NCBI RefSeq assembly: GCF_030814655.1 | Contig: NZ_JAUSVK010000001.1 | Coordinates: 6,393,001-6,457,000, forward strand | Source of the DNA: Labrys monachus | GTDB lineage: Bacteria; Pseudomonadota; Alphaproteobacteria; Rhizobiales; Labraceae | DNA: 64,000 nt | Direction of reading: 5' to 3' | Part shown: positions 45,877 to 48,818 of the stretch, in pieces | How the letters are laid out: the number at the start of each line of letters is the position of its first letter | How positions within the stretch are numbered: the stretch's first letter is position 1 | Position numbers and translations under genes: made by a program | Notes under the pieces: generated by a model | Database searches by the model: none | What the model was told of the DNA's origin: nothing | Seen by the model: the letters and a program-made list of their open reading frames with translations, nothing else

Positions 45877-46833
45877 TCAGCCCAGCATGAGCTGGATATT
45901 CTGCACCGCCGCGCCCGAGGCGCCCTTGCCGAGATTGTCGAGCCGGGCGACCAGCACCGCCTGGGGCAGCGAGGCATGCGCGAAGACGCGCAGCTCCAGC
46001 CGGTCGGTGTCGTTGAGCGCTTCGGGCTCAATCCGGGTCGAGCCGTCCATCGGCAGCACGCCGACGAGGTCGGCACCGGCATAATAGCGCTCCAGCGTGG
46101 CGTGGAGGTCGCCGGCCGAGGGCTTGCCGGGCAGGGTGTCCAGATGCAGCGGCACCGACACCAGCATGCCCTGGCGGAAATTGCCGACGGAGGGCACGAA
46201 GATCGGCCGGCGCGACAGGCGCGCATAGGTCTCGATCTCCGGCACGTGCTTGTGCTCGAGGCCGAGGCCATAGAGCTCGAAGGCGGGGGCGGTGCCCGCC
46301 TCATAGGCCTCGATCATCGACCTGCCGCCGCCGGAATAGCCGCTCACCGCATTGACGGCGACGGGGTGGTCCTGCGGAATCAGCCCGGCGTCGACCAGCG
46401 GCCGGAGCAGGGCGACGGCGCCGGTCGGATAGCAGCCGGGATTGGAGACATGGCTCGCCGCGGCGATGCGCTCGGCCTGCCCCGGCGCCAGTTCGGCGAA
46501 GCCGTAGGTCCAGCCCGCCGCGGTGCGGTGGGCGGTGGAGGCGTCGAGGATCTTCGGGCCGCCGCCGCCGAGACCGTCGATGAGCGCGACCGTCTCCTTC
46601 GCCGCCGCATCCGGCAGGCAAAGGACGACGAGATCGACTTCCTGCAGGAGGTCCCGCTTGGCCGCCGGATCCTTGCGCAGCTCCGGCGCGATCGAGCGCA
46701 GGCGGACGCCCGGAACGGAGGCGAGACGCTCGCGGATGCCGAGGCCGGTCGTGCCCGCCTCGCCGTCGATGAAGACGGTACGGGCGGCCGCCGCCTGGTG
46801 CGGCTTGTCGGCGAGATCGGAAAGGACGGCCAT
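45877..46833 (-). CDS. argC: N-acetyl-gamma-glutamyl-phosphate reductase (type 2)
   Basis: ArgC reduces N-acetylglutamyl phosphate in arginine synthesis. The 318-residue protein is the short type-2 form common in alphaproteobacteria. It has [23 protein letters not shown] and the catalytic Cys134 in [17 protein letters not shown] precedes the ATG. No other arg genes are adjacent; rpsI/rplM, often near argC in this order, are not here. Confidence 0.95.
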
Positions 46834-46949: not shown

Positions 46950-47137
46950 GGTGGGATGATGACTACGTGGGGGCGAGGGCTTTCGTTACAGGGCGGGGGG
47001 ATCACAAAAACTCGCGCGTTTCGGGTGTTTTCGGCCACATGCACTTGATTTGCCGGTGATGGGGCGCATGCGCATAGTCGTCTCACGCAGGGCGCCGGGA
47101 TCGTTCCGGGCCGCTGCAGAGAGAAAAGGAACCGACC

Positions 47138-47419
47138 ATGTCCGTCTTCACCAAGGCCGCCACCACCTTCGCCCTCGCGGGTGCCGTCGCCAGCGCCGCC
47201 GCCCTGCTGTCCGCCCCCGCCCGGGCCGATGAAGCCAAGGAGAAATGCTACGGCATTTCGCTCAAGGGGCAGAACGACTGCGCGGCCGGCGCCCATTCCT
47301 GCGCCGGCGCGTCGACCATCGACTATGACGGGCAGTCGTTCAAGCTGGTCCCGAAGGGCAACTGCGTGACGATGAAGACGCCGCACGGCATGGGCTCGCT
47401 CGCGCCGATGAAGAGCTGA
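47138..47419 (+). CDS. bufA1: DUF2282 bufferin-like precursor peptide
   Basis: The 93-residue precursor has a Sec signal peptide (1-30, ending ARA-DE) and a core with four cysteines: Cys37 (EKCYGIS), Cys48 (NDCAAG), Cys55 (HSCAG) and Cys76 (GNC). This is the DUF2282 pattern, now known as bufferin-1, a periplasmic copper-binding peptide whose central cysteines are converted to thiooxazoles by the DUF692/MNIO enzyme BufB. AAAGGA precedes the start. No bufB is adjacent (see findings). Confidence 0.88.
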
Positions 47420-47430
47420 GGCTGTGGCCG

Positions 47431-47454
47431 GCGGGTATCCCACGCGGGATACCC
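47431..47454 (+). terminator. hairpin between bufA1 and bufC
   Basis: GCGGGTATCCC and GGGATACCCGC arms with a loop of four bases form an 11-base perfect stem directly after the bufA1 stop. There is no following T-run, so it is more likely an mRNA-stabilising or attenuating hairpin than a full terminator. Confidence 0.5.
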
Positions 47455-47509
47455 GCGGTGCGCCAAGCCAATAAGATAGCCGGCAAATAAAATGAAGGGT
47501 ATCGCCGAC

Positions 47510-48277
47510 ATGGCAGCCGATCTCCAGGAAGCCTTCCGCCGTGCCGTGCTCGATCCGGCCGCGGAAACGCCGGCGGGCCTGCGCGCCCATCACGGTGCGG
47601 GACATGACCGGCGCTTCGCCGTCTACCGCAACAATGTCGCGCTGGGGCTGGCAGGGGCGCTGGAAGGCCGTTTCCCCGCCGCAATGGCGCTGGTCGGGGA
47701 GGAATTCTTCCGCGCCCTGGCCATCCTCTTCGTTCGGGAGCATCCGCCGCGATCACCCCTGCTGCTCGCCTATGGCGACGACCTGCCGGACTTCGTGGAG
47801 ACGTTCGAGCCGGCGCGGGAGGTTCCCTATCTCGCCGACGTCATGCGGCTCGAAGTCGCCCGCAGCCAGGCCTATCACGCCGCCGATAATGAGCCGGCTA
47901 CATTAATCGACCTCCAGGCCCTCGATCCGGAAAGTCTCGGCGAGACGAGGGTTGTCCTCCACCCGGCCGTGCGCCTGCTGCGCTCCGCCTTTCCGGCGGC
48001 GACGATCTGGCAGATCAACGCCGGCGGCGAGGTCCGCCCGGTCGACGACTGGGCCGGCGAGGACGTGCTGGTGACGCGGCCGGCGCTCGACGTGCTGGTG
48101 CAGGTGCTGCCGCCGGGGGGATACGCCTTCCTGGCCGCTCTCGGGGCCGGCGAAACACTCGCCGCCGCGGCCGAAGCCGCCTTCGCCGCGGCGCTGGACT
48201 TCAATCTTGCCGCTGCCGTCGCCGGCCTGGTCGGCGCCGGCATCGCCCTGCGCTTCATTCCCGGGTCCAAGCTGTAA
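47510..48277 (+). CDS. bufC: DUF2063 (BufC/HvfC-like) protein
   Basis: The protein (255 residues from the ATG at 47510; an ATG at 47492 would add six) matches DUF2063, annotated as a putative DNA-binding domain but now known as the partner of the MNIO enzyme BufB. Seen are DLQEAFRRAVLD, FAVYRNNVALGLAGALEGRFPAA and the C-terminal region. It should help present the precursor to the maturation enzyme. bufB would normally lie between bufA1 and this gene. Confidence 0.88.
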   Translation: MAADLQEAFRRAVLDPAAETPAGLRAHHGAGHDRRFAVYRNNVALGLAGALEGRFPAAMALVGEEFFRALAILFVREHPPRSPLLLAYGDDLPDFVETFEPAREVPYLADVMRLEVARSQAYHAADNEPATLIDLQALDPESLGETRVVLHPAVRLLRSAFPAATIWQINAGGEVRPVDDWAGEDVLVTRPALDVLVQVLPPGGYAFLAALGAGETLAAAAEAAFAAALDFNLAAAVAGLVGAGIALRFIPGSKL

Positions 48278-48323
48278 CGTCGGCATCGGCCGTGCCGTAG
48301 AGGGCCTATCAGGAGGATTCACG

Positions 48324-48818
48324 ATGACGATGCCCGCCATGACCACATCCGCCGAGCCGGCGCGGCCGCAGGGGCTGCTCGACCGGGTTCTCTACCTCAC
48401 CACGCTGGTGCCGCACTGGCTGATCGCGCTGCTGGCGCGGGTCGCGCTGCTGCGCGTCTTCTGGTGGTCGGCGCGCACCAAGGTCGCGGACGGCACCTTG
48501 TTCACGCTGTCGGACAGCGCCGTCTACCTCTTCCAGGAGGAGTACAAGCTGCCGCTGGTCCCGCCCGAGATCGCCGCTCATCTCGCGCTCCTCGGCGAAA
48601 GCGTGTTCTCCGTCCTCGTCATTCTCGGCCTCGCCACCCGCCTCGGCGCGCTCGGCCTGTTCTTCATGACGCTGGTGATCCAGGTCTTCGTCTATCCCGA
48701 GAGCTATAACGAGCATGTCCCCTGGATGGTGTGCGCGCTCTATCTGGTGAAGTTCGGCGGCGGCTTCCTGTCGCTCGACGCCCTCATCGCCCGCCGCCTC
48801 GGCCGGACGTCGCTCTAG
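48324..48818 (+). CDS. DoxX-family membrane protein
   Basis: The 164-residue protein has four transmembrane segments in the DoxX pattern (LIALLARVALLRVFWWSARTKV, then LLGESVFSVLVILGLATRLGALGLF). DoxX proteins often accompany bufferin operons and are thought to act in redox or membrane roles. The gene is 46 bases after bufC in the same direction, with AGGAGG before its ATG. Confidence 0.85.
   Translation: MTMPAMTTSAEPARPQGLLDRVLYLTTLVPHWLIALLARVALLRVFWWSARTKVADGTLFTLSDSAVYLFQEEYKLPLVPPEIAAHLALLGESVFSVLVILGLATRLGALGLFFMTLVIQVFVYPESYNEHVPWMVCALYLVKFGGGFLSLDALIARRLGRTSL

Follow-up and report, generated by a model that had tools for sequence, protein, structure and literature searches.

A bufferin-type operon of Labrys monachus was found to contain the precursor gene bufA, the partner gene bufC and the membrane protein gene doxX, all on the + strand and in the usual order, and to be devoid of bufB, the DUF692/MNIO gene. 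The locus raises the question of which enzyme, if any, serves the precursor, and why the partner gene was kept. In our study, the window was a stretch of 64,000 nucleotides (6393001-6457000) of a genome that is assembled as a single contig of 6,920,400 bases, with 100% completeness and 3.2% contamination.

The bufferin operon of the window

The original prediction, made from the sequence of the window, described a DUF2282 precursor, a DUF2063 partner and a DoxX protein in the usual order without bufB. The Pfam scores of the three products confirmed this description (Table 1). The product of bufA contained a hydrophobic N-terminal signal, as judged from its sequence, and cysteines at positions 37, 48, 55 and 76. 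It was 86-88% identical to the bufA product present at the same site in three Labrys genomes, and the window doxX was 79-83% identical to the doxX of these congeners. An earlier in-frame ATG of bufC was found at 47492; the start that matched the homologues was at 47510, where MAADLQ was aligned with MLADTQ. Against the NCBIfam equivalog model of HvfC, which is named after the oxazolin-type HvfC, BufC scored 48.5 bits, below the cut-off of 142. The AlphaFold model of BufC had a pLDDT of 90. The sequence search of the PDB gave no match for BufC, and the only significant PDB matches of the fold search were TglHI entries, with E 4e-5 and TM 0.60-0.63 for chain 8hi7_A, which has the size of a partner subunit.

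Table 1. Features of the bufferin operon of Labrys monachus and of its surroundings, in positions of the window
Feature	Position	Strand	Remarks
argC, upstream of and divergent from bufA	45877-46833	-	
Putative sigma-F-type promoter GTAACG-N16-CGTA, toward argC	46964-46989	-	Exact match; same spot in 3 congeners
bufA, Buf1-type (DUF2282) bufferin precursor, 93 aa	47138-47419	+	Pfam DUF2282 81.7 bits, cut-off 22.4
Site of bufB in congeners	47420-47509		90 bases
Hairpin after bufA, perfect 11-bp arms, 4-base loop	47431-47456	+	Inverted repeat; fold z = -3.7
bufC, PME type 1 MNIO partner (DUF2063 + RRE-like domain), 255 aa	47510-48277	+	Pfam DUF2063 87.9 bits, cut-off 27.2
Putative sigma-F-type promoter GTAACG-N16-CGTA, before doxX	48274-48299	+	Exact match; overlaps bufC stop
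doxX, HvfX/DoxX-type membrane protein of bufferin operons	48324-48818	+	Pfam DoxX 57.7 bits, cut-off 23.6
Threonine aldolase-like gene, downstream of doxX	48849/48903-49970	+	

The gap between bufA and bufC had been described as at most 90 bases long and as holding only a hairpin, and this was borne out. It measured 72 bases to the first possible start of bufC and 90 bases to the homologous start, contained the inverted repeat, and no remnant of bufB was found in it by tblastn, the best E-value of the neighbourhood (0.11) lying outside the gap. A frame-shifted DUF692 gene in this gap had been named as one observation that would overturn the description; it was looked for, and tblastn gave no trace of a frameshifted bufB or of a pseudogene. 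The hairpin is, judged from its sequence, no classical terminator, because it is not followed by a T run. It gave a single match within the window and was rejected as a mobile or repeated element. In the congeners, and at the second locus described below, bufA is likewise followed by a strong hairpin, with weaker z-scores of -0.4 to -2.8, and the hairpin of the window therefore probably belongs to the precursor transcript.

The second locus

The original prediction had proposed a search of the genome for DUF692 proteins. The profile search found exactly one DUF692 gene (G000:C1, 2779350-2780144, - strand; 353 bits), one DUF2063 gene, which was the bufC of the window, and three DUF2282 genes, namely that of the window and two others located just upstream of the DUF692 gene. 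No second DUF692 or DUF2063 gene was present in the one-contig genome. The single DUF692 gene was located 3.66 Mb from the window operon, or 3.26 Mb in the other direction if the chromosome is circular.

At the second locus, nrsF-sigF was found in one direction and bufA-bufA-bufB was divergent from it. Neither bufC nor doxX was present at this locus, and a glutathione S-transferase gene ended on the opposite strand 55 bases after bufB. The bufferin genes of this genome were divided into bufA, bufC and doxX at 6.44 Mb and bufA, bufA and bufB at 2.78 Mb. Among the explanations first offered for the retained bufC, the supply of BufB from another locus was strongly supported, with the only DUF692 gene adjoining two DUF2282 precursors and being devoid of a DUF2063 partner. 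Of the features of a Buf1 bufferin system, the DUF2282 precursor with four cysteines, a DUF692 gene in the genome, a PME type 1 partner and DoxX were present; the arrangement of bufA-bufB-bufC in one operon was absent, bufB being missing from the window operon and bufC from the operon of bufB. The three precursors of this genome contained a common region, EKCYG[VI][AS]..., together with the four cysteines.

The operon in congeners

Three of the four congeners (G001, G002 and G003) contained a complete bufA-bufB-bufC-doxX operon between argC and the threonine aldolase gene. In each of them the stop of bufB overlapped the start of bufC (ATGA), and the DUF2282, DUF692 and DUF2063 genes were each present once per genome. 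As the operon is intact at the same site in these three congeners, the most likely event is a deletion of bufB from the window operon in the lineage of the present genome. The presence of bufB at this position in all close relatives had been named as a finding against the original prediction; it held for three of the four congeners, which points to a loss in the lineage and does not refute the absence itself. The operon of the fourth congener (G004) was complete as well but of another kind, with a relative in Bradyrhizobium. A broken DUF2282 precursor was also observed in this genome (L024:1043-1909, G004:C11), with EKCFGVALKGWNDCAAG in a long frame and the remainder out of frame, in addition to the complete operon.

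Ancestry of BufB and BufC

The window BufC was 72-73% identical to the BufC of G001-G003, and the flanking genes showed 82-83% (argC) and 68% (threonine aldolase) identity with those of the same congeners. In the BufC tree it formed a clade with the Labrys BufC with an SH-aLRT support of 100. The BufB of the second locus was 67-68% identical to the BufB of the congeners, and its identity was 82% with that of the Rhizobiales isolate AFS045263 and 81% with those of Rhizobium lusitanum and the isolate AFS036838. The BufB tree placed it in a clade of seven with these three (support 96); the careful tree of a reduced BufB set had moderate inner supports, 87/67 and 89/91. The AU test rejected a clade of the second-locus BufB with the native Labrys BufB (p-AU 0.0005). 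The possibility that the remaining bufB is the native gene relocated was ruled out by the trees and the AU test. By descent, as read from these trees, the BufC is native to Labrys and the BufB belongs to the lineage of the Rhizobium-type operons.

For 104 loci, the BufB and BufC distance matrices were correlated with r = 0.72; this comparison was not decisive, because the two proteins had nearest neighbours in common at only 49 of the 104 loci, and the supported clades carry the argument.

An nrsF-sigF pair divergent from bufA-bufA-bufB-bufC-doxX was found in Rhizobium lusitanum, R. terricola and others, and the two precursor genes of these operons correspond in type and order to those of the second locus. 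From the same divergent regulators, precursor types and order, the second locus is to be read as a Rhizobium-type operon minus bufC and doxX.

NrsF was present in a single copy in each Labrys genome. In G003, G001 and G002, orphan sigF-nrsF pairs (L150, L151 and L152) were located beside unrelated genes and were unlinked to the bufferin operon, and the orphan sigF of the three genomes belonged to the same clade as the sigF of the Rhizobium-type bufferin operons (support 98). It would fit these findings if the second operon was present early in Labrys and was later lost, except for its regulator, in G001-G003; an ancestral second operon and a separately acquired one could not be told apart by the trees.

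Conservation of the maturation proteins

All of the columns conserved in at least 95% of 104-106 relatives were kept in BufB (87 of 87) and in BufC (27 of 27), and the deviations of both proteins were at or below the median. The dN/dS of bufC against the congeners ranged between 0.19 and 0.25, and that of the neighbours between 0.16 and 0.33, these values being pairwise averages over time and blind to a recent relaxation. The BufC branch of this genome had a length of 0.23, as had the stem of the congeners (0.23). In 11 aligned precursors, the four cysteines and the signature were invariant. The conserved residues and rates support the view that neither BufB nor BufC has decayed, although conservation does not prove activity.

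Sigma-F regulation

The sigma-F consensus of Caulobacter is GTAACC-N16-CGAA (PMC3511200). In all of the operons examined, including the window-type operon of the congeners, sigma-F-type sequences preceded both sigF and bufA. The + strand site before the window bufA was degraded, whereas it was intact in the congeners. Two exact sigma-F-type matches were observed in the window (Table 1), against 0.22 expected. No sigma-F site was seen in the bufC-doxX gap of the congeners, which is about 20 bases long. The only NrsF of the genome was encoded at the bufB locus, where matching sigma-F-type promoters were present. The degraded site before the window bufA is suggestive, and only suggestive, of a loss of shared control: the sigma factor behind the expression of BufB may have ceased to control BufC, and the two operons would perhaps not be co-induced.

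Origin and possible function of the divided system

We regard it as probable that two complete operons underwent complementary losses that left one hybrid BufB-BufC enzyme acting in trans on three precursors. The native Labrys operon in the window would have lost bufB, and a second operon of different descent would have kept bufA-bufA-bufB and sigF-nrsF and be left without bufC and doxX; the order of the two losses is conjectural. The BufC of the window would pair in trans with the only BufB of the genome, giving one hybrid maturation enzyme. This enzyme may bind the recognition region shared by all three precursors and may oxidise the central cysteines of each, forming thiooxazoles, before the peptides are exported; the products would be periplasmic copper-buffering peptides. 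The original prediction had seen each of its explanations for the retained bufC as a variation of the described system, and this part stands; added here are the BufB of another lineage and a second operon that lacks exactly what the first kept. The supply of BufB from another locus, as first proposed, is supported and is sharpened here to a probable complementary loss with a hybrid enzyme. We lean, with a little less assurance than for the complementary losses, towards a BufB of the Rhizobium lineage and a native Labrys BufC that are encoded apart under different promoters, assemble in trans and are the only maturation enzyme for the three precursors of two operons.

The related enzymes of other systems bear on this pairing. 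HvfB or HvfC alone gave no product, HvfB acquired its active mixed-valent iron state only with HvfC, and the two proteins were inactive when purified apart and then mixed, the heterodimer being formed only on co-expression (PMC13419390). FonB and FonC formed a stable heterodimer (PMC12668002). As HvfB and HvfC, the best-studied pair, were inactive on mixing after separate purification, the separate synthesis of BufB and BufC could be a real handicap. If the bufferin enzymes behave like HvfB and HvfC, the strain must build its enzyme from separately transcribed subunits of different descent, and this one enzyme must serve all three precursors.

The strongest alternative, which we consider unlikely, is that both loci are the leftovers of broken operons, with an inactive hybrid enzyme and precursors that are unmodified or unused. 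The loss of bufB in the window and of bufC-doxX at the second locus would agree with such decay, as would the degraded sigma-F site before the window bufA and the suggestion that modification may be lacking in precursors without a linked MNIO gene (PMC12452194). All of the genes were, however, open and of full length, with every strongly conserved residue kept, the dN/dS was like that of the neighbours, and the BufC branch was not faster. Moreover, the genome has retained precisely one bufB and one bufC, an outcome not necessarily expected of random decay.

It is far less probable that BufB acts without BufC on the two precursors of its own operon and that the BufA and BufC of the window have another role, for example with BufC as a chaperone or carrier of unmodified BufA. 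The operons are unlinked and their promoters are apparently different, as this would require, but HvfB that lacks its partner HvfC has no activity and fails to attain the active iron state (PMC13419390). Just as improbable is an assembly error that removed bufB from the gap or deprived the second locus of bufC-doxX. The split is described from one genome and a single assembly; that assembly is, however, a single 6.92-Mb contig of 100% completeness, and both of the separate loci would need to be wrong. The gap contains its own hairpin and a bufC start spaced at 90 bases, with no truncated junction, and the second locus continues for 55 bases beyond bufB into the opposite-strand gene. The least probable alternative, a different and unrelated enzyme replacing BufB for the window precursor, found no support and is opposed by the canonical and fully conserved BufB of this genome, by the lack of any gene between bufA and bufC, and by the lack of a candidate enzyme in the window operon.

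Comparison with known systems

The Buf1 (DUF2282) operon bufABC(D) of Caulobacter, CC3254-CC3257, is located beside sigF-nrsF (PMC3511200; PMC12452194) and encodes the same four protein families as found here. The Labrys genome has the precursor signature, the cysteines, a sigF-nrsF pair and putative promoters of the GTAAC-N16-CGWA type in common with it. It differs in that the window operon is devoid of bufB, the only BufB and the only BufC are unlinked and of different ancestry, and one enzyme pair would serve three precursors. The Rhizobium-type operons (L027, L032, L034, L030 and L057) share with the second locus the divergent regulators, the types and order of the precursors and the closest BufB (82%), but the second locus lacks their bufC and doxX.

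Bufferin precursors unlinked to an MNIO gene have been reported, which were suggested either to remain unmodified or to be served by an MNIO encoded at another locus (PMC12452194). They likewise have a precursor gene without an adjacent bufB; in the present genome, by contrast, the precursor gene is still accompanied by bufC, the only one of the genome, and bufB is found at another locus, so that the split lies inside the enzyme complex. The HvfABCX/oxazolin operon of Haemophilus (PMC13419390) and FonABC (PMC12668002) encode an MNIO and DUF2063/RRE heterodimer that is needed for the 5-thiooxazole, and a DoxX-like protein. Their precursor is of the EGKCG-repeat type and not DUF2282, and their B and C proteins are co-encoded, unlike those of the present genome.

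The only BufB and the only BufC of one genome, encoded at different loci and derived from different lineages, provide a natural test of the need for co-translation, of the exchangeability of partners and of the service of several precursors in trans by one enzyme. The genome contains no other candidate enzyme, and it supports the idea that an MNIO from another locus matures precursors that lack a neighbouring MNIO. Genome mining limited to neighbourhoods would score both loci as incomplete.

Frequency of the split

An MNIO gene is almost always found next to that of its DUF2063 partner (PMC12668002). In our study, BufB was located directly upstream of BufC in all of the 80 nearest BufC loci of GTDB genomes. 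A survey of the order covered 120 genomes, each at least 95% complete, of which 70 carry DUF2063. A DUF2063 gene without an adjacent DUF692 gene was found in 2 of 88 cases, the bufC of the window and an extra copy in G050, and a DUF692 gene without an adjacent DUF2063 gene in 3 of 89 cases, that of this genome, an extra copy in the genome G018 and a divergent gene in G042. G050, G018 and G042 were examined as further splits and rejected. G050 contained one complete pair besides its extra DUF2063 gene (G050:C196:14026-14232), the extra BufB of G018 (G018:C97) was in a fragmented assembly, and the divergent MNIO of G042 showed 26% identity, in a genome devoid of DUF2063 genes. In G052, a MAG of 84% completeness in 430 contigs, bufA-bufB was followed by icd and the only DUF2063 gene was on another contig (L134, L154); this is possibly a second split system, in a MAG too fragmented to count. 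Among the 70 comparable genomes of the order, a single BufB unlinked to a single BufC was found in the present Labrys genome only.
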